Part shown: piece by piece, positions 23,051 through 40,248 of the stretch | Layout of the letters: every line of letters starts with the position of its first letter | How positions within the stretch are numbered: the first letter of the stretch is position 1 | DNA from: Verrucomicrobiota bacterium | Lineage (GTDB): Bacteria; Verrucomicrobiota; Verrucomicrobiia; Palsa-1439 | Assembly (NCBI GenBank): GCA_003152315.1 | Contig: PLZV01000055.1 | Location: forward strand, 1-44,168 | Direction: 5' to 3' | DNA length: 44,168 bases | The notes under the pieces: model-generated | The model's database searches: none | What the model saw: the letters and a program-made list of their open reading frames with translations, nothing else | Told to the model about the DNA's origin: nothing | Position numbers and translations under genes: made by a program

Positions 23051-24445
<1,395 letters not shown>

Positions 24446-24460: not shown

Positions 24461-26020
24461 TCAACCAGCTTTGGAAGGGAGTTTCAGGCGACTGAGACGA
24501 AAAATCGCTCCCTTGGGTTCCTTGGGGATATATTGAATCTCCCACCCGTGTGCCAGAACAATTTGCTGGACCACCGCCAGCCCCAATCCCGTTCCCTTTG
24601 GATGGGTGGTGAAATACGGCTTGAAAATCTCGCTACGATTTTCGGGCGAAACGCCGGGGCCATTGTCCCGGACATCGAGCTGCGCCTCCGTGGCGCTGCT
24701 TTTCCGGGAAACAATTTGGATTTCCCCGTGGGTCGGGATGGCCTGGATGCTATTGATCAGCAGGTTAAAGAGAACCTGGCGCAGCAACTGCGCGTCCGCC
24801 TCTACGGTAAGGCCCTCTTCTTCGGTCGTCAGTTGGATGGCTTTGTCATCGATGTCGCTTTGGAGCGCGCGGACCACATCGCCAATCACCGTGCCCAGCG
24901 CGATTGTCGACCGGCGCACTTCTCGCGGTCGGGAATAATTGATGAATTCGTTCAGTTGGGCGGTTACGCGATCCACTTCGTCCGTGATCTGGAGCGACTT
25001 GCCCCGGATTTCCTCGGGTGTGCCGGGTTCTTTGGAAATCATTTGCGCCAGGCCGCGAACGATATTCAGCGGATTCCGCGTCTCATGGGCGAGCCCCGCT
25101 GCGGCCAGGTTCATCTCGCGCAAGTGGGAGTTCAGTTCGCTGGCGCGCAGCAGGTACACCTGCAATTCAGAGGTCTTGACGAGATTCTGCCAGGCCATCC
25201 CGATACCGACGACGGAAACCGTTGCCAGAAAGCCGATGACAAACCGCAGCCAGAGATCCCGCAGGGACGCCGTGCGGAAAGACTCAGTGGACATGGCGAC
25301 CGCCAAACCATGCAGCCCGCGTTTCTTGGTCAATTCCTGGTACTCCTTCTCATCCATCCAAAACGGTCGTCCGAACCGTGGCCGGCCTCCACGGTCCCTT
25401 GGGCCTTCGGCCCGTTCGGCTGTGTTCGTCGTCGCGCTGTTTGTGGCCACGCTGTCGGGAGGGCGTGGGAAACCCGGATCGTCCGGCCGGGGCTCGCCGC
25501 GTTCGAATCCTCTCTCGACATTGCGAACAACATTCGTCGTATCCCGTCGCGACAGAATGATTGTCGGGCGATTGGTCTCGCCTTCGGGTGTTACACTCGC
25601 ACCCAGATCGATCAGGTTCACCAGGGTGACACTCCGGTCATTCCACTGTTCACCCTGCTGTGTCGTATCCATTGTTTGGAGATCAAGGGGTTTGCCCGCA
25701 AAGGCCACCACATAGCCCGAGGCATTTAAGAGCGCGACCGAGATGAGTTCGCCGGATCTGACGAGTTCGTTTAACGCGGATTCCAGTCGTTCCTGGGAGA
25801 CAATCCCTCCGAAGCGCCGCTGGGATCGAATGACAACGCTGAGTGTTGCGGCGATGTCGCGGGATCGATTGACCAGTGTCGTCCGCGCCGATTCTTTGAC
25901 CCAGCGATACTCCAGGACCTGCCAGATGATGATCGTTGCCCAGGTCGCCAGCAATAGCCCGTAAACGAGCGGAGTCCGCCGTCGGATGCGCGAGGTAAAG
26001 GTCGATTCTGATTCGGCCAT
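24461..26020 (-). CDS. Membrane sensor histidine kinase (NtrB/PAS-less type)
   Basis: 519 residues. TM1 (about 19-36), an extracytoplasmic sensor region (about 40-255) and TM2 (about 258-278). Then come a short coiled linker, the HisKA domain with phospho-His312 in GLAHETRNPLN, and an HATPase domain with N box LLINSIQA, G1 DNGPGV and G2 GTGLGLAVV. The sensor region includes an unusual Arg/Gly/Pro/Thr-rich low-complexity segment (about 170-220). The ATG follows the stop of the secretin gene with no spacing, so kinase and secretion genes share a transcript. The likely partner is the sigma-54 activator downstream. The signal is unknown; envelope or secretion status is a natural guess. Confidence 0.93.
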   Translation of the reverse strand: MAESESTFTSRIRRRTPLVYGLLLATWATIIIWQVLEYRWVKESARTTLVNRSRDIAATLSVVIRSQRRFGGIVSQERLESALNELVRSGELISVALLNASGYVVAFAGKPLDLQTMDTTQQGEQWNDRSVTLVNLIDLGASVTPEGETNRPTIILSRRDTTNVVRNVERGFERGEPRPDDPGFPRPPDSVATNSATTNTAERAEGPRDRGGRPRFGRPFWMDEKEYQELTKKRGLHGLAVAMSTESFRTASLRDLWLRFVIGFLATVSVVGIGMAWQNLVKTSELQVYLLRASELNSHLREMNLAAAGLAHETRNPLNIVRGLAQMISKEPGTPEEIRGKSLQITDEVDRVTAQLNEFINYSRPREVRRSTIALGTVIGDVVRALQSDIDDKAIQLTTEEEGLTVEADAQLLRQVLFNLLINSIQAIPTHGEIQIVSRKSSATEAQLDVRDNGPGVSPENRSEIFKPYFTTHPKGTGLGLAVVQQIVLAHGWEIQYIPKEPKGAIFRLSRLKLPSKAG

Positions 26021-27187
26021 CTACTTCGGGCTCTTTGTGGGTTGGTTACCGGCCTTGTTGCTCTTCACCGGCAGGGTGTCGAGGAAGCGATCCAGTTCCT
26101 GTTCCGTGAACGCCTTGGGCAGCAACTGTGAGTTGGCCTTTTCGCCCGCTGACAAGGCCGCCAGTTGCGAAGGTTGTGTGACGATGTGCGGGGTCAGGAA
26201 GATGATCAGCTCGGATTTTGTGTAACTCTTCGTTTGACGTTTGAAGGCATTGCCGATGAACGGAATATCGCCCAGGATGGGGATTTTGCTGTCCGTGCTC
26301 GTCTTGTCGGTTTCCATCAAACCGCCGATGATAACCGTTTGCGCATCGGGTACGACCACCACAGTATCGGCGGAGCGAGAATTGATGACCGGGGCGCTGA
26401 CCGAGCCGCTCGGCCCGCTGGAGATGGGAACCCACTGGCTGCGATCGGCGAGTTCCGAGATCTGAGGTGACACGATCATTTCCACCAGGCCCTCAGGAGT
26501 GATGAACGGAGTTACCTGCAAGATCACCCCAACAGGTTGGTAGGTGACGGTGTTGATCTGGTTGCCCAGCGTGTCAAAGCGCGTGCTGGTGATGAGGGGA
26601 ACCTGCTGGCCCAGGTTGATGGTGGCCTGCTGGTTGTTCCGGGCGAGGATCGACGGACGTGACAGGATTTCCGTCTTTCCCGCTTGCGCAATCAATCTCA
26701 AGGTGGCCGAAAAATCATTCCCCAAGATGGTGTAAAGTCCGGCACCGGGCGGCACGGGAGCGGCCCCCGATGAAAGGAGCCCGAAGATATTCGAGGCCGT
26801 ACCCGTCATCGGGCCGCGGAGCTTGCCGGTGATGTTGCCTTCAATGCCAATATCCGAAGCGTTATTATAAGTGACTTCCAAGAATACGACCTTGATCAGC
26901 ACCTGGGGCTTCGGGCGATCCAGACCGCGGATCACTTGCTTGATATACTGGGCCGTCTCATCGTCGGCGATCACGGTGATTTGTTTCGTGTCGGGGTCGC
27001 TGGAAATGATCGCGTCCCCGATCGTGCCGTTTGGGACATAAGGTCGGCTGGTCGCCGTGCTCGAAGCCGCTGCCGCTGGTCGCGGCGCTTGCCCCTGTCC
27101 TTGCGCGTGCGCCTGCAGCATGGCGCACAGGCAGATACCCAGGCCACCAGCCAGAATCTTTATGAACCGCGAATAATCGGTCATCAT
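26021..27187 (-). CDS. gspD: Secretin, C-terminal half (half N3 plus beta-barrel)
   Basis: 388 residues. It has its own signal peptide (about 1-28, ends QAHAQ) and a Gln/Ala/Pro-rich linker. Residues 60-92 (IISSDPDTKQITVIADDE, then IKQVIRGLDRP) match only the second half of a secretin N3 domain. KPQVLIKVVFLEVT leads into the secretin barrel (about 95-345), with the barrel-core stretches LSRPSILARNNQQATINLGQ and IGGLMETDKTSTDSKIPILGD. The end (346-388) is short and polar. No N0, N1 or N2 domain is present. It starts 43 bases after the gene for those domains, with a GAGG ribosome site. The protein should form the outer-membrane pore of the type II system, with the periplasmic rings supplied by the upstream gene. 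Confidence 0.9.
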   Translation of the reverse strand: MMTDYSRFIKILAGGLGICLCAMLQAHAQGQGQAPRPAAAASSTATSRPYVPNGTIGDAIISSDPDTKQITVIADDETAQYIKQVIRGLDRPKPQVLIKVVFLEVTYNNASDIGIEGNITGKLRGPMTGTASNIFGLLSSGAAPVPPGAGLYTILGNDFSATLRLIAQAGKTEILSRPSILARNNQQATINLGQQVPLITSTRFDTLGNQINTVTYQPVGVILQVTPFITPEGLVEMIVSPQISELADRSQWVPISSGPSGSVSAPVINSRSADTVVVVPDAQTVIIGGLMETDKTSTDSKIPILGDIPFIGNAFKRQTKSYTKSELIIFLTPHIVTQPSQLAALSAGEKANSQLLPKAFTEQELDRFLDTLPVKSNKAGNQPTKSPK

Positions 27188-27230
27188 GTTTGCCTCGTCA
27201 TTTCTTGTTCTTCAGATGGCTTGCGTCTTC

Positions 27231-28853
27231 CTAGTTTCCCCCAAATCCACCGCCACCGCCTCCAACGCCCGTCCCGCGTCCCATGCCGCTGGTCGTTGTG
27301 CCCTGATTATTTCGTGTCGTGCGACTAGTGAGGGCATCGTTCTGTCCATTCTGCGTCGAAGAATTATTCCGCTGTGTCGTCGTGTCCTTGTTGAACATGT
27401 CCTTCAATACCGGCAGCACATCCGTCACTTCGGCGTTCTCCAGCGGGATGACATAGACGCTTTGTTTCCTGGAGGAATTGCCGTCGAGCTGCTCGATCAT
27501 GGCGGCGATTTGGGGCATCAAATCACCTGCGGCGCTGATGATGACCGAGGAAGTGCGTTGGTCCGGCACCGCGATGACCTGGCCTTTCTTCTTCATCCGG
27601 TCACTTGTCGGCGTCTGCGCATTCTGGGCGTTTCCCTGGTTGAAGAAGCCTCCCAATCCTCCGCGAAAACGGACGGCGGCCTGGTTCTGGTCGGCTGTGC
27701 GACTGTCATCCGGAAACAACTGCGAAAAAAGCGCCGCGGTCTCCACCGGATCGGCGTTGGCCAAATGAAACACCCGCAATTCCGTGACGTCCGTAACGCT
27801 GACGTCGATTTCCCGGACCAATTGCTCAATCGTGGGAATATATTCGTCTGGTGCGCTGACGACCAGAGAGTTACTGCGGTCATCCGCCACCGCTGAGACG
27901 TGGGGGACCACTCGTTGCGCCGCCGCATTGTCTGCGGCACCACCTTGGCCGCCTGCTTGACCGCCACCACCACCGCCGAAGCCACGGAAGAACTGGCGAG
28001 GATTGTTGCCTTGCTGCTGGTTGGTAGTGGGCGACGTGAACAACTCCTTGACCGCGGCTGCCAAATCCTTCGCATCCGCGTATTTCAACGGGAACACGCG
28101 CACGGTCGAAACGCTGGAGACGGAAGTATCCAGCGCGTTGACGATTTCCACCATGCGGCGCACGTTGGCCCGCGTATCGGTCAAGACCAGCGCATTGGCG
28201 CTGTCGTTCGCGGTCAACGTGGCGTAAGCGGGTTTGAGTGGTTCCAGGTCTTTAAGTAACTGGGAGACGTTGGCATAACGGACCGGGATGATTTGCGTGA
28301 CCATTTCATCGGTCTTGGGGATGGCCTCAGGATTGCTGCCGGGCATGACCGGGATGTTCCGTTTCTTCGCGTCGTCACGGCTCATGATCGTCAATGTCCG
28401 GCCGTTGCGAATTGCCGCATACCCATTGCGATTCAGCGCGGAATCCAGCACCGCGACTGCTTCATCCTTGGTGAGCGGGTGGTTGTTCCAGACATCCACC
28501 TTGCCTTTCACTTCCGTCTCCAAAACGATGGTGAAGCCGGCGGCCTTGCTCAGGTAATCCAACACCATTTCCAGCGGCGCACCCCGGAAGTTCAGGCGCA
28601 ATTCGTCATCGCCTGCGGGCGCCTCCGCTGCAGCCACGGTGTCCGTCGTTGCGGTTTCACTGGGTTTCTCGGCCACAGCGATCTCGTTTGTCGACGGCTG
28701 ATCAGCAGCCGCTGATGGAGCATCGGGTTGCTCGACGGACGGGCTGTTGGTCGAGGCCGTCACCTGAGACGTATCAGTCGTCTGGCCGATTGACACGACG
28801 ACGATCCCCCAGATGAAACCGAGCATTAGTATGGAAGTTTTCATGGCGTTCAT
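27231..28853 (-). CDS. gspD: Secretin, N-terminal half (N0-N1-N2 repeats and half N3)
   Basis: 540 residues with a signal peptide (about 4-24) and an acidic Ser/Thr/Ala-rich linker (25-82). N0 (85-157, LNFRGAPLEMVLDYLSKAAG), N1 (184-246), a second ring domain (250-353) with a Gly-rich loop at 293-306, and a third (357-460) follow. The last recognisable piece, 464-488 (SVYVIPLENAEVTDVLPVLKDMF), is the first half of an N3-type domain. It is followed by a 50-residue Asn/Thr/Gly tail and a TAG stop. The barrel is missing and sits in the next gene. Loss by a sequencing frameshift is unlikely because the next gene has a ribosome site and a full signal peptide. The start overlaps the gspC-like stop (ATGA). 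Confidence 0.9.
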   Translation of the reverse strand: MNAMKTSILMLGFIWGIVVVSIGQTTDTSQVTASTNSPSVEQPDAPSAAADQPSTNEIAVAEKPSETATTDTVAAAEAPAGDDELRLNFRGAPLEMVLDYLSKAAGFTIVLETEVKGKVDVWNNHPLTKDEAVAVLDSALNRNGYAAIRNGRTLTIMSRDDAKKRNIPVMPGSNPEAIPKTDEMVTQIIPVRYANVSQLLKDLEPLKPAYATLTANDSANALVLTDTRANVRRMVEIVNALDTSVSSVSTVRVFPLKYADAKDLAAAVKELFTSPTTNQQQGNNPRQFFRGFGGGGGGQAGGQGGAADNAAAQRVVPHVSAVADDRSNSLVVSAPDEYIPTIEQLVREIDVSVTDVTELRVFHLANADPVETAALFSQLFPDDSRTADQNQAAVRFRGGLGGFFNQGNAQNAQTPTSDRMKKKGQVIAVPDQRTSSVIISAAGDLMPQIAAMIEQLDGNSSRKQSVYVIPLENAEVTDVLPVLKDMFNKDTTTQRNNSSTQNGQNDALTSRTTRNNQGTTTSGMGRGTGVGGGGGGFGGN

Positions 28854-29476
28854 TTGTTCAACTCCTTTTCCCGCTGTTGCATCAATCTCTTAAGAACCGC
28901 GTCGGCACTGCTGCCGGTACTGGGTCCGTCATCGGAAGTCTCTGTATCTTTCGTTTCGGAAGTGGCAGTCTCCGATACTTTGGCGAGCGCCACGGTGCCA
29001 TCCACCAGTTGCCACTCTCCCGCATCAAGTTTTTTCATCTGCATTCCCACGGTCATTTTGATCTGGTTGCCGTTGGTCTCCAGCTCGACATAGTCGGGGG
29101 CGACTTCCGTGACCTTGTAGTCGGCGATGGTGCCGGCAACTTTCAGGACCTTCTTGTATTTCGAATCGCTGCCGCTGAAAAAAGCGAACTCTCCCCGCTT
29201 GTCAATCAATGTGCCCACGAGGGAGAAACCCTCCGCGCGCGCCAGGCGATTGGGGTCGATCCGCCGGCCCCGTTCACCCGATCCCGCCCGACGGTTGGGG
29301 TCGAAAATGTTCCGTTGCGTGATGATCTTGAAATTTTGGAGAGACACAGCCGACGAGGCGTTGTTCGTATCACCGGCGTAGCCTGCGGCGGGAAGGCAGG
29401 ACAACACGGTGGCGAGGGCGAGCCGGGCCCACGTCAGGCCGTCGATTCGTTGTCGTTGTTTCCCGGAATGCTTCAT
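28850..29476 (-). CDS. GspC-like inner-membrane/periplasmic protein
   Basis: 208 residues. An N-terminal hydrophobic helix (about 16-34) is followed by a homology-region-like domain (about 45-150): FKIITQRNIFDPNRR, then EGFSLVGTLIDKRGEFAFF and VELETNGNQIKMTVGMQMKK. That order matches the GspC HR domain, which binds the secretin N0 domain. It ends with a Ser/Thr/Asp-rich linker and a short basic helix, with no PDZ domain. Position between gspM and the secretin gene, with four-base overlaps on both sides, supports the call. A true GspC has an uncleaved anchor; here the helix ends in an AAGYAG-like site and may be cleaved. It could also be called PilP-like. Confidence 0.75.
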   Translation of the reverse strand: MKHSGKQRQRIDGLTWARLALATVLSCLPAAGYAGDTNNASSAVSLQNFKIITQRNIFDPNRRAGSGERGRRIDPNRLARAEGFSLVGTLIDKRGEFAFFSGSDSKYKKVLKVAGTIADYKVTEVAPDYVELETNGNQIKMTVGMQMKKLDAGEWQLVDGTVALAKVSETATSETKDTETSDDGPSTGSSADAVLKRLMQQREKELNK

Positions 29477-30015
29477 GGTTGTTCCGCCGGTTCTCCGGTG
29501 AGGACCAATCCGGTAAAACGTACTCCGAGTGAAAGCTGTTGACCATCGTTATCCCGCGAGGAGATTTCGACGTCCTCCACTCGCAACGCCAGCGGTTCCC
29601 GCTCCAAATCATAGAGAAAGCGCATGAGGGATGACATGTCTCCGAAGGCATCGGCCCGGCATTCCAGTGTCACGTAGTCATCCGCGTTCTGCTTCCATTG
29701 GGGCTTGATGGAGGTGAAGCTGATCCCGCTGTCCTGTGTCCAGGTATCCACGGACTTCAAGACTTTGCTTTCCGCCATCGACAGGTTAACGGGCAGGGTG
29801 TTGCTGGCCATGTTTGACCATCGTTTCCGAATCTCCTTCTCCCGGTCGAGTAGGAGTTTGCCCTGGGTGAGGTCTTTCGACAGTTCCACAATTCGCTCGG
29901 AGCGTTTTCCCCAGACGTGACCCAACGGCGTGAGAATCAGCCGATCAAGGGCCAACAGCGCCACCGCGCTGATCGCCACGACCGTCAGCAGCTTTTGGCG
30001 ATTCTCAATTTTCAT
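29473..30015 (-). CDS. GspM/PilO-like assembly protein
   Basis: 180 residues. A short cytoplasmic start (MKIENRQK) is followed by a TM helix (about 9-27), a periplasmic coiled coil (about 35-65), and a ferredoxin-like domain (about 75-170) with ECRADAFGDMSSLMRFLYDLE and ALRVEDVEIS. This is the plan of GspM/PilO inner-membrane proteins, which pair with GspL. ATG 30015 has GGAG six bases upstream; an ATG at 30027 is less likely. It overlaps the gspL-like gene by 11 bases and the gspC-like gene by four. The call rests on topology and position, as sequence is poorly conserved in this family. Confidence 0.78.
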   Translation of the reverse strand: MKIENRQKLLTVVAISAVALLALDRLILTPLGHVWGKRSERIVELSKDLTQGKLLLDREKEIRKRWSNMASNTLPVNLSMAESKVLKSVDTWTQDSGISFTSIKPQWKQNADDYVTLECRADAFGDMSSLMRFLYDLEREPLALRVEDVEISSRDNDGQQLSLGVRFTGLVLTGEPAEQP

Positions 30016-31456
30016 GGGTGGCTCCATCCGACCAATGAAAGTCGAAGGTGAATTGCAGGGGCGACTTGCCGCGGACTGACTGGACCTTTACATCTTCGAC
30101 GTGGTTCGCTGCCCGCAGCCGGTCCAGCAGCTTCAACAGGGCCTGGTTGTCATCCGCCACGCCCGAGCAGGAGACTTCCGAGAGGTCCTTGATTTCGAAT
30201 GTCTTCACCGAAACCACGCCGTCTTCTGGAAAGGCCTGGGTGAGGTTTTTGAGAATGGTCAAGGTGCGCGCTGAATTGTCGAACCACGGCCGAAACTTGC
30301 GGACGTTTTGTTGCATCCCATCGATTTCCGTGACTCGGGGTTCGATGGCGTGCCAACGCGATTCCAGAATCGAAAGCCACGTATATTGCACCAGGAAGGC
30401 CAGCAAAACCAGAAGGACGGCGGCTCCCGCCGTCACGCTCGACCAAAGGATCCGGCGTGAGGAGAACCGCGCCGCGAGTTCCATCCACGGGCTGACCTTC
30501 GGAGGTAGAAACTCGAAACCGGTGGGATTGCCTTCCAGGGAGCGGAGCGCCATCACCAGTGCCGGCGGAGCATTTTCCGGAAGGGAAGCCAGCGCGTCAA
30601 CCCCGTCCACCTGGGCGACGAGGCGCACTTCCACCGGCAGCCCCATGCGCCCCGCGATTGCGGCGATTTCGTCAGCCAGCGGTTGCGTCCATTCGGTGCG
30701 TCCGAAGACCCTGATCCTGGTGACCGCTTCCCGGAATCCAGCGGGCAATTGTCCCAGCGTCAGCCGGATTTCCCTCGTCAGCAAATCCGTGTCGATCTGG
30801 CGATGACCGTTGTCGGTCTCGATGGCCCCTTCCAGGGAACGCAGCGCGACGACACCGCCACCACACGTAATTTGCAGATCAACCCTGCTCTCGCCAACCA
30901 CCAGGGTCAGGATGCCTTCCGATTCCGCGGCAGACGGCAACTGCAAGGCGGCAACCAGCAGCGAAAAACTGACCGGCTTGAGCCGGGCGGCGACGAGAAC
31001 CTGTTCGAGGCGCGCCAAATAATCCCGGGGTATCGCCACAAGGGTGGCATACGGCCCATCCTTGGCGGAGCGGCAGCGTGAAGTCGCCGTGCGCAAGTCT
31101 TCAGGGCCATAGGGAAAGCCTCTTTCGGACTGGATGCTGAGAAAACTGGTGACATCCTCCTCGGGGATTTCGGGCAATTTTACCGGCAGTGTCAACGCCC
31201 AATTGAGGGGAACGCCGACCGCGCACCGGCTTTCATGCACCCCGGCTTCATCGAGTCGATTGCGAATCTCCTGCCCAACCAGCTCTGGATCGTTCGTCAA
31301 CGGATCCAGCGAGAGCAGGGCTTCAAAAGGTTGGCCCGCTTCCAGCGAACCTTTGCCGCGTGAAAGAATGATCCCTTCGAGTCGCCGCCCCTCGATGGTC
31401 AAGCCCATCAGGGACGACCCACGCGGCGTCAGGAGTTTTAGGAAATCCAGCGTCAT
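30005..31456 (-). CDS. GspL/PilM-like assembly protein
   Basis: 483 residues. An actin-like cytoplasmic domain (about 1-325) with SLMGLTIEGRRLEG at the start and CAVGVPLNWALTLPVKLPEI is followed by one TM (about 345-366) and a periplasmic part (about 370-480). The latter holds a coiled coil and a ferredoxin-like fold (VVSVKTFEIKDLSEV). This fits GspL, which recruits the ATPase GspE to the inner membrane. The start ATG (31456) overlaps the gspK stop (TGATG); a GTG at 31459 is also possible. Family members share little sequence outside the fold, so domain order and operon place carry the call. Confidence 0.82.
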   Translation of the reverse strand: MTLDFLKLLTPRGSSLMGLTIEGRRLEGIILSRGKGSLEAGQPFEALLSLDPLTNDPELVGQEIRNRLDEAGVHESRCAVGVPLNWALTLPVKLPEIPEEDVTSFLSIQSERGFPYGPEDLRTATSRCRSAKDGPYATLVAIPRDYLARLEQVLVAARLKPVSFSLLVAALQLPSAAESEGILTLVVGESRVDLQITCGGGVVALRSLEGAIETDNGHRQIDTDLLTREIRLTLGQLPAGFREAVTRIRVFGRTEWTQPLADEIAAIAGRMGLPVEVRLVAQVDGVDALASLPENAPPALVMALRSLEGNPTGFEFLPPKVSPWMELAARFSSRRILWSSVTAGAAVLLVLLAFLVQYTWLSILESRWHAIEPRVTEIDGMQQNVRKFRPWFDNSARTLTILKNLTQAFPEDGVVSVKTFEIKDLSEVSCSGVADDNQALLKLLDRLRAANHVEDVKVQSVRGKSPLQFTFDFHWSDGATHEN

Positions 31457-32892
31457 CACATGTTCCCGGTCAGTTGCCAGCTTTGTCGGGCGGCACCGAG
31501 CGCCCGAGTCATTTGATTCAGATCTCGCCGATAAATGATGTGCGGTGTTCCGCCACTTGTGTCGAACACGAACAGGGCTCGCCGGTACCCGCGCCCATGA
31601 TGGCCGACCGCGGCAACGTCAGCAGTGAGTTGGTAGCTCTTGGCGGTGATATACGGGCCGGCTTGGGTGGCTCCGTCGTTTCCCAGAGCTTGCGCCACCC
31701 AGCCCACGGTGGCCAATTGGTCGGGATGGGTCTGTCGATAGGTGACAAGCGTCTGTGCGTTGTTTACCCCAATGCCGGGCAGACAGGCCAGGACCGTGGC
31801 GGAAGCGGTATTCACGTTGACCAAGCCCTGGATATACGGGTCGGCGCTCACGGTCAACGCGTCCGCAACCTTAGCGAACTCATCGGCGGTCATCCCACTG
31901 CTGATGTAGAATTGGAGAACACTGGTAAACGTCGCGTTTCTTCCAAGCTGTTGCAGGATCTGGGTCGCGCGGTCCGCGCTCAGGGCATTCTGCAGCACGG
32001 TCCGCAAGCCGGCTTGGCCGCGGGCGCTGATATTGATGCGGGGTGTACCGTCGATTTGTGTATTGGGTTCGCGGCTGTAGACAGTGACATATTCAAGAAT
32101 TCCTGCGTTCAACCCACCGTCGAGATTGGCGACGGTCTGCAAAGTATTCTGATTGTTCTCATTGGCATCGAGGATGCCGTTCAGATTGATGTCCACGCCA
32201 TACAAGATGTCCGTTGTCGCACCGATCACGAGTTTCAATTCATCAATCGTCTCGAACGGGGCGTTCTTGCAATGGTATGGCGGGTTGAGCATCCCGTATT
32301 CCAATTCCGCGCCCCCGGCGGTGATGGTGGTGGCGGCGTTTCGCCAGTTCAGGATCGAAGCGGCCAAATCGGGCGTCATGAACGGCAAGGCTTCCAGCAT
32401 GTCCAATGTCGCCGTATTGAGATTCAGCTTTGACGCTTCATCGACGAGGGCGAAAACCGGAACGCCGCTATTGACGTTCGAGGTTCCGCCGGTATCCCGT
32501 CCAATCAGCCAGAAGTGCGCGTTCCCCACGGACACATCCTGGCCCTGATACGTTTGGGTGAACGGCGTCTGTCCCGATTGCGGAGTGTACGCCTGAATGA
32601 CACCCGGCAGGATCAGGACGCCGGGCATGTTCGTGCCCTGCGACAGGATCTGCTGTTGAAGATTGGTGAGGACGGCGCTGATGTAGCGGGCGGCGCCCTC
32701 GATGGCCTGATCGGCCTCGACGCTGGCCTCATAATTGTCGGTCGCCTGGAGATTGAACAGCATCGACTGCCCGAAATACAGGGCAATGCTCACCAGGCCA
32801 AAAGCGATCCAAAGGACAATCACCAGCACCGCCGCATTTGGCGATGACGCGCTCCATCCAACACGCTGCTGTATGGAATTCCCGGTCTTCAT
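31456..32892 (-). CDS. gspK: GspK-like minor pseudopilin
   Basis: 478 residues, longer than the usual 300-330. The N-terminal pseudopilin helix (about 19-41, AAVLVIVLWIAFGLVSIALYF) has no Glu5, as is normal for GspK. The alpha-domain holds LVDEASKLNLNTATLDML, a calcium-loop-like DINLNGILDANE (about 235-246), and a helix-hairpin-helix near the end (VNVNTASATVLACLPGIG). GspK of enterotoxigenic Escherichia coli binds calcium, so the loop is consistent. It caps the pseudopilus tip with GspI and GspJ. It overlaps gspJ by four bases and the gspL-like gene by one. The extra length lies mainly after the first alpha-domain. Confidence 0.88.
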   Translation of the reverse strand: MKTGNSIQQRVGWSASSPNAAVLVIVLWIAFGLVSIALYFGQSMLFNLQATDNYEASVEADQAIEGAARYISAVLTNLQQQILSQGTNMPGVLILPGVIQAYTPQSGQTPFTQTYQGQDVSVGNAHFWLIGRDTGGTSNVNSGVPVFALVDEASKLNLNTATLDMLEALPFMTPDLAASILNWRNAATTITAGGAELEYGMLNPPYHCKNAPFETIDELKLVIGATTDILYGVDINLNGILDANENNQNTLQTVANLDGGLNAGILEYVTVYSREPNTQIDGTPRINISARGQAGLRTVLQNALSADRATQILQQLGRNATFTSVLQFYISSGMTADEFAKVADALTVSADPYIQGLVNVNTASATVLACLPGIGVNNAQTLVTYRQTHPDQLATVGWVAQALGNDGATQAGPYITAKSYQLTADVAAVGHHGRGYRRALFVFDTSGGTPHIIYRRDLNQMTRALGAARQSWQLTGNM

Positions 32893-33599
32893 CCGCCGAT
32901 TACGCTCCCCGCCGTGGCGACGCTATTACTGGGGACTTGTCCGTCCACCGGAACCAGGACCTCCAGCGGCAGGCGGCCCTGCCCGGTGGAATTCCCGTTG
33001 GCAAATTCGATATGGACCTTGATCGCTTGCGGCGCGGGCGTTACTGCCGACGTCGAATCCCAGGTGGTCTGCCAGTTCGCGCCGTCGAAAAATGAAAACT
33101 GCACAGAGCTGACGCCGCTCAAGAGCGGCTGCTCGGCGAGGTCCGGTTGCGTGGACGCCAGCAGGTTACGCGTGACGGCACGGATCAGGTCCTTGCCCAC
33201 TGGATGCGAGGCATTGGCCGAATCCTTCAACAAGTAGGAAACTTTTTGAACGTCCCCCCACGGCTGGTTGTCGCGGAGCACGCCGGTCGTCGTATATATG
33301 TCCAGGTCTGTGGGCTGGTTGTTGCCGCTTTCCGTGCCGGGGCTTTCGATGGAAATCGCCATTGTCCCGCCCGTAATCAACGTGCCCCGCAAGTCGGCCT
33401 TGAGGATCGAGGCGGCATGACCCTGCGGGACGCTGTTTTCGACCAGGTCGGTGGTGACCGACCGCAAATGCAACGCGGCATAGAAAGCGGCGTTCATGGC
33501 CGCCAGAACGATCGCGGCGATCAGCGTAGCGACCAGCACCTCCAAGAGGGTGAAGGCGCTGGCGTCTGAAAGCTTACGTTGGTTGCCTCGACGCGTCAT
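32889..33599 (-). CDS. gspJ: GspJ-like minor pseudopilin
   Basis: 236 residues. The prepilin leader (about 1-15, MTRRGNQRKLSDASA) is followed by FTLLEVLVATLIAAIVLAA, with Glu at mature position 5. Ala, not the usual Gly, stands before the cleavage site. The globular part is long and beta-rich, ending in RLPLEVLVPVD, which fits GspJ size and position between gspI and gspK. It forms the tip complex with GspK and GspI. Four-base ATGA overlaps on both sides. Confidence 0.82.
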   Translation of the reverse strand: MTRRGNQRKLSDASAFTLLEVLVATLIAAIVLAAMNAAFYAALHLRSVTTDLVENSVPQGHAASILKADLRGTLITGGTMAISIESPGTESGNNQPTDLDIYTTTGVLRDNQPWGDVQKVSYLLKDSANASHPVGKDLIRAVTRNLLASTQPDLAEQPLLSGVSSVQFSFFDGANWQTTWDSTSAVTPAPQAIKVHIEFANGNSTGQGRLPLEVLVPVDGQVPSNSVATAGSVIGG

Positions 33600-34024
33600 G
33601 GGGCTGTGTCCGGCAATACGGTGCTCAAGTGCACGTTGTAATTCTGGCCTTGTACCGGGTATATGACCTCGACGGTTGCGAGCCGCAGGTTGTTGAGGCT
33701 GGCGTCACCGCCCCACGGTTCGTTCTTCACAGTCCATTGATAGCCCGGCCACTGCGGGCCGCAGGCGCCGCCCTGGCCGGAGTTGTGCCATTGGCCGGTG
33801 ACGATCAGTTCGTTCAATTTGCTTTCCGCCAATTGCACGGCCACGCCCTTGCGCGCGGCGACCGCGCCGGCGCGGCTGGCGATCCGCAAGCCCTGCAAGG
33901 CCACTGGGATGACAATGGCCATGAAAAGCATGGCAGCCAGCATCTCGACCAGCGTGAAGCCGTCTTGTAAACTCCGGCTACCACGAGATCGTTGCCCGCG
34001 CATTTGTTTTCTGAACCGTGACAT
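33596..34024 (-). CDS. gspI: GspI-like minor pseudopilin
   Basis: 142 residues. A basic leader (about 1-22) ends in Gly, then FTLVEMLAAMLFMAIVIPVAL with Glu5. The helix runs into a small domain containing AESKLNELIVTGQW, a stretch typical of GspI. The start is uncertain: ATG 34024 and ATG 34003 both lack a strong ribosome site. The gene overlaps the gspH-like gene by 26-47 bases and gspJ by four. It is expected to nucleate the pseudopilus with GspJ and GspK. Confidence 0.82.
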   Translation of the reverse strand: MSRFRKQMRGQRSRGSRSLQDGFTLVEMLAAMLFMAIVIPVALQGLRIASRAGAVAARKGVAVQLAESKLNELIVTGQWHNSGQGGACGPQWPGYQWTVKNEPWGGDASLNNLRLATVEVIYPVQGQNYNVHLSTVLPDTAP

Positions 34025-34547
34025 AATTCAATTGATTCTGTGATTCCACGATGGCCGACCAATCGCCATCGTCCTGCACGATTACCACCCGGCGCAAACT
34101 GCTTTCTTCAATGGAGCCATCGGGCGCAAACAGGATGCTGGCTCCTTGCTTCGGGAGCGCCACTCCTTGCTCGAACTGAAACCGCAGCCCGTCCCCCAGC
34201 TTGTAGCTCACATCCTTCCTGGTTCCCGCCGGTGCCGTCGCTCCCCCGGCACTAAACCCGTCCTGCACCCGCAGGCCGTACGTCCCGTTCGCGGGATTCA
34301 TCCACAAAATCATCGGCAACCCTTCCGAGGCGGCGCGGCTCTGGCCATAGCGTGTCAGGGCCAGCAGTCTCTGGCCTTCTTCCGCGACCGTTTGCCCATG
34401 AAAAAACCTCGCCAGACGGGGCGCGCCGATGGCGATCACGATCGAGAGCAGGGCCATCACCACGATCAATTCAATCAGCGTAAACGCACCGCGCCGCGGC
34501 GGCCTAACGCTTCTGTCGTGATTGGTCCCAGCTCGTGATGTCATCAT
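33978..34547 (-). CDS. gspH: GspH-like minor pseudopilin
   Basis: 189 residues from ATG 34547 (an ATG at 34544 is equally possible). Basic leader MMTSRAGTNHDRSVRPPRRGA, then FTLIELIVVMALLSIVIAIG with Glu5 and Ala at -1. The rest is a beta-rich domain (LLALTRYGQSRAASEG, ILFAPDGSIEESSLRRVV) typical of GspH/FimT. The frame is open to 34682, but that part overlaps gspG and is not prepilin-like. The start overlaps the end of gspG by about 44 bases, unusual but compatible with coupled translation. Confidence 0.82.
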   Translation of the reverse strand: MMTSRAGTNHDRSVRPPRRGAFTLIELIVVMALLSIVIAIGAPRLARFFHGQTVAEEGQRLLALTRYGQSRAASEGLPMILWMNPANGTYGLRVQDGFSAGGATAPAGTRKDVSYKLGDGLRFQFEQGVALPKQGASILFAPDGSIEESSLRRVVIVQDDGDWSAIVESQNQLNYVTVQKTNARATISW

Positions 34548-34968
34548 CGCCACCCGCGCGTCCATCGGGTCCCATGGACATGATGTCGTACGTGCTTGCA
34601 TTGTGTTTCCCCGGACAATCGTAAATGTAGGCCTGTCCCCACGGGTCATTGGGAATGCTTTCCTGCTTGAGGTAGGGTCCATGCCAATTGGGCGCGTCCT
34701 TGGGCTGGGCGACGAGGTCGGTCAGGCCGTTCTTGCCCTTGGGATAATACCCGTTGTCCACCTCAAAGGCATCGAGAGCGGTTTCGAAATTGGAGATTTG
34801 CGTTTTCGCGGCGGTGTTCCGCGCCTGTTCGGTTCGTCCCGCAAATTTCGGCACGACGATGGCGGCGAGCACCCCGAGAATCACGAGCACGAGAAGCAAT
34901 TCGATCAACGTAAACGCCTCGGCGCTGGTGCCGCGAGACTGATTTCTGATTGATTGGTGTCGTTCCAT
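34504..34968 (-). CDS. gspG: Major pseudopilin GspG
   Basis: 154 residues. Leader MERHQSIRNQSRGTSAEA, then FTLIELLLVLVILGVLAAIV with Glu5, and the conserved FETALDAFEVDNGYYP. WGQAYIYDCPGKHN and the calcium-binding C-terminal loop follow (MSMGPDGRAGGDDDITSWD), all diagnostic of GspG. The ATG at 34968 has AAAGGAG eight to nine bases upstream; the frame upstream of it overlaps gspF and is noise. Position -1 is Ala. It forms the main shaft of the pseudopilus. Confidence 0.96.
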   Translation of the reverse strand: MERHQSIRNQSRGTSAEAFTLIELLLVLVILGVLAAIVVPKFAGRTEQARNTAAKTQISNFETALDAFEVDNGYYPKGKNGLTDLVAQPKDAPNWHGPYLKQESIPNDPWGQAYIYDCPGKHNASTYDIMSMGPDGRAGGDDDITSWDQSRQKR

Positions 34969-34988
34969 AATGGCAGCTCCTTTGCAGT

Positions 34989-36230
34989 TTATTTGATGTA
35001 ATCCTGAAGCGAGAAGATCGGGAGGGCCATCCCGATGAAAATTGTGCCGATGAATCCGGCAATGAAAAACAACATCAACGGCTCGGCGAGGGACACGGCC
35101 ATCTTCAACTCGCGGTCCAGATCCCGCTCGGTGACGTCCGCCAGGCGAATCAACTCCTGGTCGAGGCGGCCACTTTCCTCCGCCACGGAAATCATTTCCA
35201 GGACGGAGCCGGTGAAAAGTTCCCGGCAACTGGCCAGGCTCGGCCCCAACGCCGCGCCTTCCTTCACGCGTTCGATGGAGTTGGCGACGGCATCCACCAG
35301 AATCTGGTTCCCGATGGACTTGCGGGCAACGGTCAATCCATTGATCAGTGGCACACCGGCGGTCAGCAAGGTCCCAAGCATTCGACAGAAACGGGCCATG
35401 GCGAACTGTGCGATGAGTTTTCCCACAACCGGGGCGCGCAGGAGGAAACGCTCCCAAATACGTCTTCCTTGTTGGGACCGCATCCAGTTGCGAATGAAAT
35501 AGCCGCCCAACGCCAGTCCCAGCGCCACGAAGAAACCGTAGGACCGGACGACGGTGCTCGTGGCGATGATCATCCGCGTTAGCAGCGGCAGGGTTCCACC
35601 GAACTCAGTGAAAAGAGGCTGTAACCTCGGTATGAAGAACACCAGTAGAAAAACAAGGACGGACAGGGCCACTGCCAACAGGATCGTCGGATAGAGCAGG
35701 GCGGCCATTACCTTCGAACGCAATTCCTTTTCCCGCGCTTGAAAATCGGCGATCTGCGCGAGCACCAAGTCCAGAAACCCGCCGGTTTCGCCGGCCTCGA
35801 CCATCGCCACGTAAACGCGCGGAAACGTCTCCGGCCACCGCGCCATCGTATCGGCGAGTGTTGCACCGTCCACGACCGAATCGTGGATCTCTTTCCACTT
35901 TGTCCGGGCCAGGGGTGTGGAGGCTTCGCGATGAAGGATTACCAGGGCCCGGCTGAGGGGGACACCCGCCGCCAGGAGGCTGGAAAGCAACCGTGTAAAA
36001 TTCTCCAGCGTGCGACTGGAAATTTTCCTGGAAGCCCAGGGTGACGCCACCATTTCTTTTTTCGATTCGACGTTCCTGGCGGCCTGGCCATTGGCGCCAG
36101 CCGACAAGCTGATGGCGGTCAGGCCAAGTCCTTCAATTTGACGAAAAGCTTCTTGTCGGCCCTCGGCGTCGATGTTGCCTTGCGTGAGGGTTCCGTCGGT
36201 CTGTAGTGCTTTGTAAAGGAAGAGTGGCAT
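34989..36230 (-). CDS. gspF: Inner-membrane platform protein GspF
   Basis: 413 residues (family usual about 400). Two T2SSF domains are seen: the first with FTRLLSSLLAAGVPLSRAL and MVEAGETGGFLDLVL, the second with FCRMLGTLLTAGVPLINGL and MISVAEESGRLDQELIRLA. Membrane helices lie at about 170-195, 220-240 and 375-398. The preferred start is ATG 36230, two bases after the gspE stop; a TTG at 36236 is less likely. It links GspE to the growing pseudopilus. Confidence 0.96.
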   Translation of the reverse strand: MPLFLYKALQTDGTLTQGNIDAEGRQEAFRQIEGLGLTAISLSAGANGQAARNVESKKEMVASPWASRKISSRTLENFTRLLSSLLAAGVPLSRALVILHREASTPLARTKWKEIHDSVVDGATLADTMARWPETFPRVYVAMVEAGETGGFLDLVLAQIADFQAREKELRSKVMAALLYPTILLAVALSVLVFLLVFFIPRLQPLFTEFGGTLPLLTRMIIATSTVVRSYGFFVALGLALGGYFIRNWMRSQQGRRIWERFLLRAPVVGKLIAQFAMARFCRMLGTLLTAGVPLINGLTVARKSIGNQILVDAVANSIERVKEGAALGPSLASCRELFTGSVLEMISVAEESGRLDQELIRLADVTERDLDRELKMAVSLAEPLMLFFIAGFIGTIFIGMALPIFSLQDYIK

Positions 36231-36232
36231 CG

Positions 36233-37951
36233 TCAAGCTTTCCCGGGTGCCGCTGTGGGAGCAGTGACAGGCTCAGTTTTGTTGGTGCGCGCCACTTCCT
36301 TGGCGGTCGTCACGCTTAGCACTTCTTCGACAGTGGTGATGCCCAGACGCACGAGGCGCCAGCCGTCTTCCGCCAGGGTGCGCAGGCCCGCACGGCGGGC
36401 CGCTTCCCGGATGACGTCGCTGGAAGAATTCTTCAGGATCAACTGCCGAATTTCGTCGTCGGAGTCCATCCACTCGAAAATGGCGTGGCGACCGAAGAAG
36501 CCGGTTTGCCGGCATTCCCGGCAACCAACCGAACGGTAGATCGTGGTATTGGCGGGAATGCCCACTTGCACCTTGAACGCCCGGGCCGCGGGAGATTCAT
36601 CCACTTGTTTGCAATGCGGGCAGAGCACGCGCACGAGGCGTTGGGCCAGCACGGCTTCGAGTGACGACGCGACGAGATAAGGTTCGACGCCCATATCGAC
36701 CAGGCGAGTCAGGGCACCGGGGGCGTCATTGGTGTGGAGCGTGGAAAAGACCAGGTGACCCGTGAGGGAGGCTTGCACGGCAATTTGTGCCGTTTCCTGG
36801 TCACGAATTTCGCCGATGAGAATGACATCGGGGTCATGGCGCAGAATGGAGCGCAGGCCCCGGGCAAAAGTTAAGCCGGCTTTTTCGGACACCTGAATCT
36901 GGTTGACACCCTTGAGTTGATACTCGATCGGGTCTTCAATCGTGACGATCTTGCGGACGGCATCGTTGATTTCGTTGAGGGCGGTGTAGAGCGTGGACGT
37001 CTTACCGCTGCCGGTCGGCCCAGTCACCAAAATGATGCCGTGGGGCAATTGAAGGACGCGACGGAAGCGATCCAGTTCGGGTGTATCCATGCCCAGTTCG
37101 CCCAAGCCGCGCAACGTGGCGTTCTGGCGGAGCAAACGCATTACCACCGCTTCGCCGTGGAGCATGGGGATGACAGAAACGCGGATGTCCACTTCGCCGT
37201 CATCGATACGGATCTTGATACGGCCGTCCTGCGGCAGGCGTTTCTCGGCGATGTTGAGATGGCTGAGAATCTTGATGCGCGAAACGATGGCCGGTTGAAA
37301 CCGCTTGAGTTGGGAGGGGACCGGGACTTCCTGGAGCACGCCATCTATCCGGTAGCGAATGCGAAACTCGTGTTCGAACGGTTCGAGGTGAATATCCGAC
37401 GCCCGCAATTCGATGGCGTCGCGCAGCACCTGGTTGACGAAGCGGATGATGGACGCGTCTTCCGCCGCGGCGTCCAGATCGGTATCTTCCTCGGAGCCAT
37501 CCTCGTTGACCACCTGCAGAGGCGTTTCCTCTTCCAGCGTGCCGATGGTGTCCGCGCCGACGCCCAGTCGTTTTTTCATTTCCCGCTGGATCGCCTCGCT
37601 CGGGGCGAGGATGGGCTTGAGTTTCAAGCCCGTCATCGCCTTGAGGGTATCCAGCCCCTGCGTGGCAAACAGGCGGCTCGTGGCCACTTCCACAGAGCCG
37701 TTGACACGCTTCAAGGGGAGGAGTTCTTCCTTCAACAGGATGCGCGGGGGAAACAGCGATAAGAGTTCACGATCCAACTCGACGTTTTCCAGGTCGGTGT
37801 AGGCCAGTCCATACTCCCCGGCCAGCCAGCGGAGCACGTCCTCTTCGGAGCGAACGGCTTTTGGGCCGTCTCCGGGGCGCTGGGCCAGGGTTGCGGCATC
37901 CGCGACCGACAGTTGCCGCGCCTGCACCATTTTGTCGAGTAGCTCTTTCAC
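36233..37951 (-). CDS. gspE: Type II secretion ATPase GspE
   Basis: 572 residues. An N-terminal T2SSE_N domain (about 30-140) precedes the ATPase (about 165-545), with SDIHLEP, Walker A GPTGSGKT (311-318), Asp box TIEDPIEYQ, Walker B DVILIGE (375-381) and a His box around HTNDAPGA. Four zinc cysteines, 444, 447, 477 and 480 (CPHC, CREC), show the GspE/PilB type and not PilT. It starts with GTG, with GGGGA about eight bases upstream. It powers pseudopilus assembly. It follows the Gly-rich leader gene by 31 bases. Confidence 0.96.
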   Translation of the reverse strand: MKELLDKMVQARQLSVADAATLAQRPGDGPKAVRSEEDVLRWLAGEYGLAYTDLENVELDRELLSLFPPRILLKEELLPLKRVNGSVEVATSRLFATQGLDTLKAMTGLKLKPILAPSEAIQREMKKRLGVGADTIGTLEEETPLQVVNEDGSEEDTDLDAAAEDASIIRFVNQVLRDAIELRASDIHLEPFEHEFRIRYRIDGVLQEVPVPSQLKRFQPAIVSRIKILSHLNIAEKRLPQDGRIKIRIDDGEVDIRVSVIPMLHGEAVVMRLLRQNATLRGLGELGMDTPELDRFRRVLQLPHGIILVTGPTGSGKTSTLYTALNEINDAVRKIVTIEDPIEYQLKGVNQIQVSEKAGLTFARGLRSILRHDPDVILIGEIRDQETAQIAVQASLTGHLVFSTLHTNDAPGALTRLVDMGVEPYLVASSLEAVLAQRLVRVLCPHCKQVDESPAARAFKVQVGIPANTTIYRSVGCRECRQTGFFGRHAIFEWMDSDDEIRQLILKNSSSDVIREAARRAGLRTLAEDGWRLVRLGITTVEEVLSVTTAKEVARTNKTEPVTAPTAAPGKA

Positions 37952-38525: not shown

Positions 38526-38576
38526 CGCGCGATCTCCTCCAACTTTGTTTGGTTGATACGTTCCTGTTACCACAGA

Positions 38577-38602
38577 GCAGGGTATACTGCAGATAACCCT
38601 GC
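38577..38602. promoter_or_regulatory. 26-base dyad at the predicted transcript start
   Basis: GCAGGGT (38577-38583) and ACCCTGC (38596-38602) are perfect inverted arms around ATA-CTGCAG-ATA, with a second palindrome in the middle; 20 of 26 positions are symmetric. It covers about +1 to +23 of the sigma-54-type transcript. It could be a repressor site or a 5' RNA hairpin. No T-run follows, so it is not a terminator. Confidence 0.45.
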
Positions 38603-38609
38603 TATCCTT

Positions 38610-38625
38610 AGCAAACGAGATGCCA
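38610..38625 (-). promoter_or_regulatory. Sigma-54 (-24/-12) promoter of the secretion operon
   Basis: On the minus strand the sequence reads TGGCATCTCGTTTGCT. The invariant GG (38624-38623) and GC (38612-38611) are separated by exactly ten bases. Ten of the twelve defined positions of TGGCACG-N4-TTGCW match. The predicted start is near 38599, leaving a leader of about 75 bases to ATG 38525. The operon it would drive ends with a GAFTGA-type sigma-54 activator. Confidence 0.75.
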
Positions 38626-38668
38626 CGTGTAGAAAACCCTTTGAAATCAAGCATTCTGCGAAGTCTGG

Positions 38669-38674
38669 TGCGCA
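38669..38674. promoter_or_regulatory. Extra TGCGCA motif, possible second activator half site
   Basis: This self-complementary hexamer also forms both arms of the dyad at 38702-38718. It starts exactly 33 bases before the first arm, about three helical turns. A TGCGAA (38657-38662) precedes it with a six-base gap, so a degenerate second site is possible. Confidence 0.4.
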
Positions 38675-38701
38675 TTGTCTTCACAGACACAGGGCTTCCG
38701 T

Positions 38702-38718
38702 TGCGCAAACGCTGCGCA
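38702..38718. promoter_or_regulatory. NtrC-like enhancer dyad (TGCGCA-N5-TGCGCA)
   Basis: Two TGCGCA hexamers (38702-38707 and 38713-38718) are separated by five bases. The Escherichia coli NtrC site is TGCACY-N5-GGTGCR, the same six-five-six geometry with similar TGC/GCA ends. The centre lies about 111 bases upstream of the predicted sigma-54 start, the classic range for an enhancer. Confidence 0.6.
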
Positions 38719-38882
38719 TGAATGTTTTTTCCCAGGCACGCAGACAAGGGGGCGCGCGGGAGAGGTGCTTAGGAGGATGAAGCGGTGGGAACCGCCCCGC
38801 GCAGCCGCAGCCAAGGAGGACTGGCAGCATTGTAAAGCTAGTGAACGGGCGCGACGATCCGATTTCGATGCGGTAACAATTT

Positions 38883-38897
38883 GGCAACGATGTTGCC
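38883..38897. repeat. Small perfect hairpin after the DUF1501 gene
   Basis: GGCAAC-GAT-GTTGCC, a six-bp stem with a three-base loop, 36 bases after the DUF1501 stop. On the transcribed strand AAATTGTT follows, a poor U-tract, so it is only a weak terminator candidate. Confidence 0.3.
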
Positions 38898-38933
38898 GGA
38901 GACCCGAAGACTTGAAAGGACGCATTTCCCTGC

Positions 38934-40232
38934 TTAGACCGCCAACAATCCAGGGTAGTTTCTGGCGTTTGGTTTGTGGTTGGGAAATATCTTGTTGACG
39001 TCGCGCGCGCCGAGATGTTTCTGGGACAATTCAGCGAAGACGTCGCGGTAGTCGGTGGTCAACATCAGATCGCGCCCTTCAAAAAGCTGTTCGCGGGCGA
39101 GGCCGGGCCACTTGCCGTAGACCTTGCCGCCGCGGACCGGGCCACCGAGCACCAGGAAACAGGTGGCGTGGCCGTGGTCCGTACCGCGGTTGCCGTTTTG
39201 ACGGACGGTACGACCAAACTCGCTCATCGTTAGGATCACCACGTCGTTCACGCGATCGCCGAGGTCCTGGTACAAGGCAGCGAGGCCGCCGGAGAATTCC
39301 GTAAACCGATTGGCCAACTGGCCCTGCGCGCCGCCCTGATTGACGTGGGTATCCCAGCCGCCGATCTCGGCAAAGGCGACTTCAACGCCGATGTTGGCCT
39401 TGATCATCTGGGCGATTTGCATGAGCGAACGGCCAAACGCGCCGTTCGGATACGAGGCGCCGTTTCGCGGCGAATACTTCGTCGGGTCGGCCGCCTTCAA
39501 CATTCCGATCGCGTCGAAGGCGTCCTTGCCGTTGCCGTGAAGCAGGTCGCCCACGGCGCTTTCGTACATGCCCTCGAATCCGCTCGCGGCGGAGGCGGTG
39601 GTGCTGTTCGGGTTAAAACCGGCGTCGCCCACCCCGAATGATTTTAAATCAGGAATGGCCAGCGCCTCCTGGTCGCCTTGCAACGTGCGCGGCAGGATTG
39701 ACGTCATGGAGACGGCGCGAAAAGGAGTAAGCTTGGCGCGATCCTCGGGACAGTCCAGCAGGGCGCGGTTGAGCCAACCGGTACGGATCGATTTGTCATC
39801 CGCCACGCCGCACTCCATGAAGTCCTGGGCGTCGAAATGCGAGCGGTTTGAACTTGGCGAGCCGCACGCGTGAATCAGAGCCAGATGACCGCTTTTGTAG
39901 ATCGGCAGCAGGGCGGCCATGTTCGGATGAAGGCCGAAGAACCCGTTGAGGTCGAGCACACCTTGCGGACCGGCCTTTTGGGCGGGCTGGGCGATCGCGA
40001 TTTCGGAACGGGCCTGGTAATAGGCTGGGTCGCCGAACGGCACGAGCATGGAAAGTCCGTCCACCGCACCGCGCTGGAAGATGCAGATGAGAATCTTCTT
40101 GCCGCCCGCACGCATCGGGTCGGCCGCGAAGACGAGTTGCTGGAGGAAGGAGGGGCCCCACAGCGGCATCGTGCCGACGGATACCAGGGCCAGACCACCG
40201 CGTTTAAGGAATGCCCGACGGGTGAGTGTCAT
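38934..40232 (-). CDS. DUF1501 protein, Tat-exported
   Basis: 432 residues. The N-terminus carries a twin-arginine signal (LTRRAFLKRGGLALVSVGTM). The body belongs to the DUF1501 family of the alkaline phosphatase/sulfatase-like superfamily: ILICIFQRGAVDGLSMLVP, GGWDTHVNQGG, VVILTMSEFGRTVRQN, GTDHGHATCFLVLGG. The GWDTH and DHGHA motifs correspond to metal-binding positions of the superfamily. No substrate is known. AAGGAGA precedes the ATG at the right distance. It is cotranscribed with the DUF1800 gene (16-base gap). The pair is a recurring unit in Planctomycetes and Verrucomicrobia, and its function is not established. Confidence 0.92.
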   Translation of the reverse strand: MTLTRRAFLKRGGLALVSVGTMPLWGPSFLQQLVFAADPMRAGGKKILICIFQRGAVDGLSMLVPFGDPAYYQARSEIAIAQPAQKAGPQGVLDLNGFFGLHPNMAALLPIYKSGHLALIHACGSPSSNRSHFDAQDFMECGVADDKSIRTGWLNRALLDCPEDRAKLTPFRAVSMTSILPRTLQGDQEALAIPDLKSFGVGDAGFNPNSTTASAASGFEGMYESAVGDLLHGNGKDAFDAIGMLKAADPTKYSPRNGASYPNGAFGRSLMQIAQMIKANIGVEVAFAEIGGWDTHVNQGGAQGQLANRFTEFSGGLAALYQDLGDRVNDVVILTMSEFGRTVRQNGNRGTDHGHATCFLVLGGPVRGGKVYGKWPGLAREQLFEGRDLMLTTDYRDVFAELSQKHLGARDVNKIFPNHKPNARNYPGLLAV

Positions 40233-40248
40233 GATGGATCTCCTTGCA

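Follow-up and report, generated by a model that had tools for sequence, protein, structure and literature searches.

Tandem TGCGCA dyads as a probable enhancer of a sigma-54 promoter heading a type II secretion operon in Verrucomicrobiota

The window analysed here, a stretch of 44,168 nucleotides from a Verrucomicrobiota bacterium, contains an intergenic region (38526-38933), flanked by two minus-strand genes, in which a predicted promoter heads a type II secretion system (T2SS) operon ending at 23051 (Table 1). GspE, F, G, J and K lie in one cluster with a secretin distributed over two ORFs, a composition that identifies the system as a T2SS, and the operon closes with the genes of a histidine kinase and of a sigma-54 response regulator (RR), the latter having the full domain set of a bEBP. 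The separation of GspD (26021-28853) into one ORF for N0-N3 and another for the secretin domain recurs in 15/15 loci including the window. The product of the first gene, whose ATG at 38525 is preceded by the ribosome-binding-like sequence GGAGGAG, is predicted by AlphaFold to form five helices (mean pLDDT 76.5), and a fold search returned no significant match to it (CpxP only at E 5-8). The gene of unknown family at 28850..29476 has a match in place in 14 of 16 relative loci, the exceptions being L029, at a contig end, and L035.

Table 1. Promoter elements and operon genes in the window
Feature	Position	Strand	Remarks
Distal dyad TGCGCA-N5-TGCGCA	38702..38718	-	Centre ~-111 from predicted start; distal dyad in 61/80 loci
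Proximal dyad TGTGAA-GACAA-TGCGCA, TGTGAAGACAATGCGCA	38669..38685	-	Centre ~-78; contains 38669 box
Linker, A/T tracts ~one helical turn apart	38633..38662	-	Near -35, -45, -55, -62
Sigma-54 -24/-12 element TGGCATCTCGTTTGCT	38610..38625	-	10/11 scored consensus positions
Predicted transcription start	38599 (near)	-	12 bases past -12 C; position deduced from element
First gene, small helical protein, family unknown, glycine-rich loop	37983..38525	-	Signal-peptide-like start
gspE, assembly ATPase	36233..37951	-	Pfam T2SSE 4.6e-139
gspF	34989..36236	-	Pfam T2SSF
ORF with gspG	34504..35457	-	Pfam T2SSG, residues 206-310; true start inside ORF
Pseudopilin-like	33978..34682	-	Pfam N_methyl
Pseudopilin-like	33596..34024	-	Weak N_methyl; position conserved
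gspJ-like	32889..33599	-	Pfam T2SSJ
gspK-like	31456..32892	-	Pfam T2SSK
PilN/GspL-like	30005..31459	-	Pfam PilN 1.7e-5
PilO/GspM-like	29473..30027	-	Pfam PilO 1.5e-5
Operon gene, family unknown	28850..29476	-	Pfam: no match
gspD N-domains, own ORF (N0 plus Secretin_N)	27231..28853	-	
Secretin domain, own ORF	26021..27187	-	Pfam Secretin 5.6e-48; N-terminus signal-peptide-like
Sensor histidine kinase	24461..26020	-	HisKA, HATPase_c
Sigma-54 RR	23051..24445	-	Receiver, AAA+ with GAFTGA, Fis-type HTH; presumed dyad binder

Three TGCGCA boxes start at 38669, 38702 and 38713 (spacings of 33 and 11), exactly as described in the initial annotation of this DNA. The hexamer is more common than the one copy per 4 kb assumed there, since it occurs once per 2.5 kb and the window holds 18 copies for 20.3 expected. 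The clustering, which had been called notable, is indeed unusual: three copies within 50 bp were obtained in 1, 0 and 1 out of 400 windows simulated at Markov order 1, 2 and 3, respectively, and in 0/5000 simulations of the 405-bp intergenic region, and TGCGCA-N5-TGCGCA arose in 5, 3 and 3 of 400 windows. A genome-wide search for the latter motif, suggested at that stage, found a single exact copy in 4.89 Mb, the one described here. The last two boxes form the 6-5-6 dyad that had been proposed, with perfect half-sites, and the distance of ~111 bases between its centre and the predicted start agrees with the position of the -24/-12 element. The picture of a dyad plus a lone box has to be modified, as relatives display two 6-5-6 dyads and the 38669 box is one half of the proximal one rather than a third independent box. 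In the window, this proximal dyad is degenerate (2 mismatches of 12), and it is identical in the nearest relative (G002).

The -24 GG and -12 GC of the candidate promoter are ten bases apart and fit TGGCAY-N5-TTGCW. It is one of 11 strict -24/-12 matches in its own genome, which encodes one copy of rpoN (PF04552, E 1.1e-60). A plus-strand promoter was also considered, and the sequence near 38822 proved to be mis-spaced. In the nearest relative, the dyads, the A/T tracts and the -24/-12 element are kept and the intervening sequence drifts.

Using the protein of the first gene as query, we retrieved 18 places in 17 of 93 genomes (own included), and two upstream 6-5-6 dyads were found in 13 of them, the window included. 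The proximal dyad is located at -76 to -78 in 11 of these 13 and at -96 in L004, and in L008 (G087) the dyads are displaced and the promoter is poor. No upstream dyads were detected in L011, L012, L017, L018 and L019 (L018 by one scan only). A wider scan of the genome collection left 80 loci of 247 relatives (Verrucomicrobiota or bacterial MAGs), which were then judged by fixed rules, a promoter score of at least 8/11 and no more than 3/12 mismatches in each of the proximal and distal dyads. With these rules, 61/80 loci carry the upstream inverted repeats together with the promoter, which is the arrangement expected of a sigma-54 enhancer, and the boxes and the -24/-12 element proposed in the initial annotation are therefore conserved jointly. 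In the 61 passing loci, the proximal centre falls between -75 and -78 in 58, the distal centre between -106 and -111 in 57, and the dyad spacing is 29-34 in 59. The same rules applied elsewhere in these loci gave 11 matches in ~2.4 Mb (same strand, 5 in 1.19 Mb; opposite strand, 6 in 1.24 Mb), some of which sit on the same palindromic dyads, and 7/1600 shuffled controls passed. The GG and GC are invariant in 56 aligned promoters, rows that had been picked for a promoter score of at least 8/11, and the dyad consensus of this alignment is YGCGCAA-N3-YTGCGCR with centres at ~-77 and ~-108. The earlier placement of the boxes on one face of the helix also holds, as the dyad centres are on average 31.7 bp apart (66 canonical-position rows), or 3.02 turns at 10.5; the resultant length of 0.59 corresponds to the same face on average with a spread of at most about a quarter turn. 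The larger table behind these spacings has 97 rows with 7 loci present twice, i.e. ~90 distinct.

The 19 failing loci are heterogeneous. Both dyads lie ~20 bp farther out in L158 and L160, a single good dyad is present in L116 and L131, and the dyads are displaced in L114, L137, L140 and L171, the last of which has the RR and the dyads with no -24/-12 match. In L121, L145 and L166, no gspE is adjacent, and eight loci (L117, L134, L144, L152, L154, L159, L161 and L167) have gspE and lack the dyad pair. As side observations, L035 (G020), L121 and L166 are lone copies of the first-gene family with neither gspE nor boxes, and the dyads of L160, near 9737, also satisfy the rules in the other orientation, through a -24/-12-like match on the opposite strand that is a possible divergent promoter.

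Between the dyads and the promoter, few letters are shared except for a rhythm in A/T content. Over 56 non-redundant promoters (62 less 6 near-copies), A/T peaks at ~-34 (0.89), -44 (0.88), -55 (0.73) and -62 (0.57), separated by troughs at ~-39, -49 and -59. The 10-bp A/T power is 0.53 against a circular-shift maximum of 0.129 (5000 shifts), 60 of 61 single promoters follow the rhythm, and held-out halves do so at 97.9% on average. The linker of the window itself correlates with the family A/T profile at only 0.20, and the A/T profile of the ten other -24/-12 matches of its genome, a small number, looks flat. This comparison shows that two dyads, a predicted -24/-12 element and helically phased A/T tracts are conserved as a unit.

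How the tracts would act is less clear-cut. With a simple wedge model and hand-entered curvature values, the predicted bend exceeds that of own shuffles in 45/62 promoters (mean z 0.94), a weak signal, and no curvature is predicted for the window linker (10 degrees versus 23 ± 12 for shuffled sequences). Given this modest family bend and its absence from the window linker, the tracts might instead be a UP-like contact for the polymerase alpha subunit or a site for an HU/IHF-like protein, a reading that is compatible with an enhancer and to which we give a little less than an even chance. The tracts at ~-34, -44 and -54 stay with the -24 element where the dyads are displaced (L004, L158 and L160), and the genome encodes HU/IHF-like proteins, both of which fit such a contact; the family-wide excess of predicted bend over shuffles, weak as it is, speaks for intrinsic curvature.

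The dyads occur with the RR. In the initial set, 12 of the 16 relatives encode an RR orthologue (E<=1e-150), and the four negatives are those in which all loci are box-less. In 50 genomes (E<=1e-130), it was present in 35 of 37 boxed genomes and in 5 of the 13 first scored box-less; these five are four genomes with displaced dyads and G103, whose other T2SS copy carries the site. The two boxed genomes without a full orthologue have contig-edge fragments (G118, 66% identical; G113, 54%). Orthologues are well separated from the next paralogues (at least 580 bits versus at most 375). Since the displaced dyads of L114, L137, L140 and L171 were found by a wider look made with RR status known, co-occurrence was instead evaluated by a profile search. 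The promoter profile used (R1) derives from 56 promoters, namely that of the window and those of 55 passing loci. The six other passing loci, L106, L107, L128, L130, L153 and L163, were omitted as off-position or near-copies, and R1 therefore favours the canonical layout. At E<=0.01, R1 matched 39/39 RR-positive versus 1/11 RR-negative genomes (Fisher p 1e-9, ignoring relatedness), the sole RR-negative match being partial (G104, E 0.007), and at E<=1e-4 it matched 38/39 versus 0/11. The genome of L137 is matched at only E 0.0099. Every one of the 39 sites is located upstream of the T2SS operon (25/25 loci, G103 and, by coordinate comparison, 12 relatives and the window). The sites are kept in G003, G082 and G068, where the RR gene is not adjacent to the operon, which is compatible with a regulator acting in trans. 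On a GspE tree, from which G103 was omitted because its locus L166 has no GspE and in which G113 was left without an RR state, both characters, RR and boxes, underwent 5 changes, which always coincided; well-supported branches carry 3 independent pairs, a number insufficient for significance in a sign test. Finally, the recognition-helix residues S436, R437, R438, L440, Y442 and K443 are invariant in 42 RR orthologues, and most of the own-genome activators compared differ at those positions.

The regulon appears to be narrow. In its own genome, R1 recovered the window site alone on both strands, and no dyad pair was found beside the 10 other strict -24/-12 matches. A wider regulon was sought by examining 14 of 15 own-genome one-mismatch dyads as loci L036-L049, which yielded no second target: in L036, a promoter-like match of 9/11 follows at 122 bp and a second dyad is lacking, and the others have no downstream promoter-like match above 8. 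The additional R1 sites of relatives (8 stretches) disclosed no conserved target; they comprise a second contig end of the same promoter, promoterless dyads and one-off candidates (G139 C107 and G120 C269). With one such place in the own genome, the regulon is probably the T2SS operon and little else. Separately, L235 (G120:C269, ~2014-2330) has two dyads separated by 33 bp, followed by a promoter-like match and an exported protein, PQQ-binding-like by eye, and is a possible second target in G120.

Taken together, the dyads very probably act as enhancer for a sigma-54 promoter from which a self-regulated T2SS operon is expressed. Activators of this class bind upstream dyads, loop the DNA and remodel the sigma-54 polymerase through ATP hydrolysis. 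In the operon described here, the histidine kinase would phosphorylate the RR, whose Fis-type domains would bind both dyads, ~three turns apart on one face, where an AAA+ ring could assemble; the phased linker may ease the tight loop, through which GAFTGA would contact sigma-54 for promoter opening upon ATP hydrolysis. As the kinase and RR genes end the operon, activation would feed back on itself, the RR presumably activating its own gene together with the others.

The sigma-54 enhancer could be bound by another activator, the operon RR having a different role: PF00158 has 20 matches in the own genome, 11 of them strong and (near) full-length with the RR among these, and at least ten strong activator domains other than the RR could bind the dyads. 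We regard this as improbable because the sites track the RR orthologue across the 50 genomes although RR-negative genomes retain several paralogous activators, because they persist where the RR gene has moved, and because the own genome has one site. Even less credible is a role independent of sigma-54, in which an ordinary dimeric regulator (repressor or activator) binds the boxes and the -24/-12 match is fortuitous. Each dyad alone does resemble an ordinary palindromic operator, and L171 has dyads without a -24/-12 element, but the spacing from dyads to -24/-12 element is conserved in 61/80 loci, and the GG and GC are invariant in the 56 promoters, even if these rows were chosen for their score. 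As for the fortuitous grouping of a frequent hexamer in a genome rich in G+C, TGCGCA does occur at its expected frequency in the window; the simulations, with at most one such cluster in 400 windows, and the conservation across Verrucomicrobiota leave it scarcely any likelihood.

Within the preferred reading of an RR-bound enhancer, we lean towards a geometry-locked arrangement in which the two dyads, three turns apart and at almost constant distances, the linker with its 10-bp A/T rhythm and the promoter would make up one helically phased assembly, maintained in a large bacterial group. This assembly would be dedicated to one self-activating T2SS operon and would disappear along with the regulator. 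Enhancers of sigma-54 promoters are generally considered distance-tolerant; the near-fixed geometry found here would then be, if this holds true, a natural case of selection on loop shape.

The NtrC enhancer of glnA and nif lies upstream of a -24/-12 promoter and is composed of 6-5-6 dyads with the half-site TGCACC, to which a sigma-54 response regulator binds through its Fis-type HTH. The element presented here shares the 6-5-6 dyads, their location upstream of such a promoter and a regulator with a Fis-type HTH (its binding being presumed), whereas its half-site is TGCGCA, its dyads are nearly fixed at -77 and -108, and its RR scores below the NCBIfam cut-off for NtrC (413.6 of 558.6 bits). 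The initial annotation had likened it to an NtrC-type enhancer: the enhancer part is supported by dyads conserved with the promoter and by a promoter profile tracking the RR, and the identity part is not, the consensus being YGCGCA rather than TGCACC and the regulator not being NtrC by that cut-off. The PrsK/PrsR (PEP-CTERM) and AtoSC pairs also combine a kinase and a sigma-54 RR and are among the nearest NCBIfam models; the RR is under both cut-offs (356.9 of 502.6 bits for PrsR, TIGR02915; 469 of 714 for AtoSC), and its identification as PrsR was rejected. A similar pairing exists in Chlamydia, a member of a phylum related to Verrucomicrobiota. Its CtcB/CtcC system consists of a kinase and a sigma-54 RR, and CtcC is described in PMC7482065 as devoid of a DNA-binding domain, unlike the RR here with its HTH. 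According to PMC3897727, A/T-rich stretches replace IHF at some sigma-54 promoters, Klebsiella nifLA being cited (Cheema 1999). NtrC-nifLA, with its reported A/T-tract curvature from activator site to promoter, resembles the present family in having A/T tracts rather than IHF in that interval; in the present family, phased tracts are kept over the 56 non-redundant promoters of a large group. In the sigma-54 regulons of Clostridiales, as summarised in PMC6615313, 170/263 activators have a single target operon, for the most part close to the activator gene, with multiple upstream sites and some activators distant from their target. Their sites are mostly 100-250 bp upstream of the promoter, whereas the proximal centre here is ~50 bp from -24, and the target here is a T2SS. 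The presumed sigma-54 control of a T2SS fits the over-representation of secretion genes near sigma-54 functions found in PMC3162934.

As judged from sequence, this is a known kind of control element in a strongly conserved new form, wider than the initial annotation had described. Searches of an open library listed no paper that, judged by title and abstract, describes such a motif, promoter or target for a Verrucomicrobiota sigma-54 regulator family, an absence that is not proof. The present analysis would give such a family its DNA motif, promoter and target, and points to a dedicated two-component loop as the switch for secretion in these bacteria of soil and water. Besides, with dozens of naturally occurring variants that share a near-fixed spacing and phased A/T tracts, the question of how loop geometry limits sigma-54 activation becomes directly testable.

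The surroundings of the operon and its RR-negative counterparts call for some additional observations. Beside the operon of the window, the segment 14712-23034 carries arabinose/xylose genes (ribulokinase, L-arabinose isomerase, xylose isomerase and an arabinanase-like gene), and a DUF1501 gene and a DUF1800 gene are found upstream on the same strand (38934-42132). RR-negative L028 (G078), L034 (G073) and nine other genomes keep the T2SS operon and lack both boxes and regulator; in these 11 genomes, control is lost or exchanged. In L028, a 969-aa ORF with weak similarity to kinases is present past the secretin.
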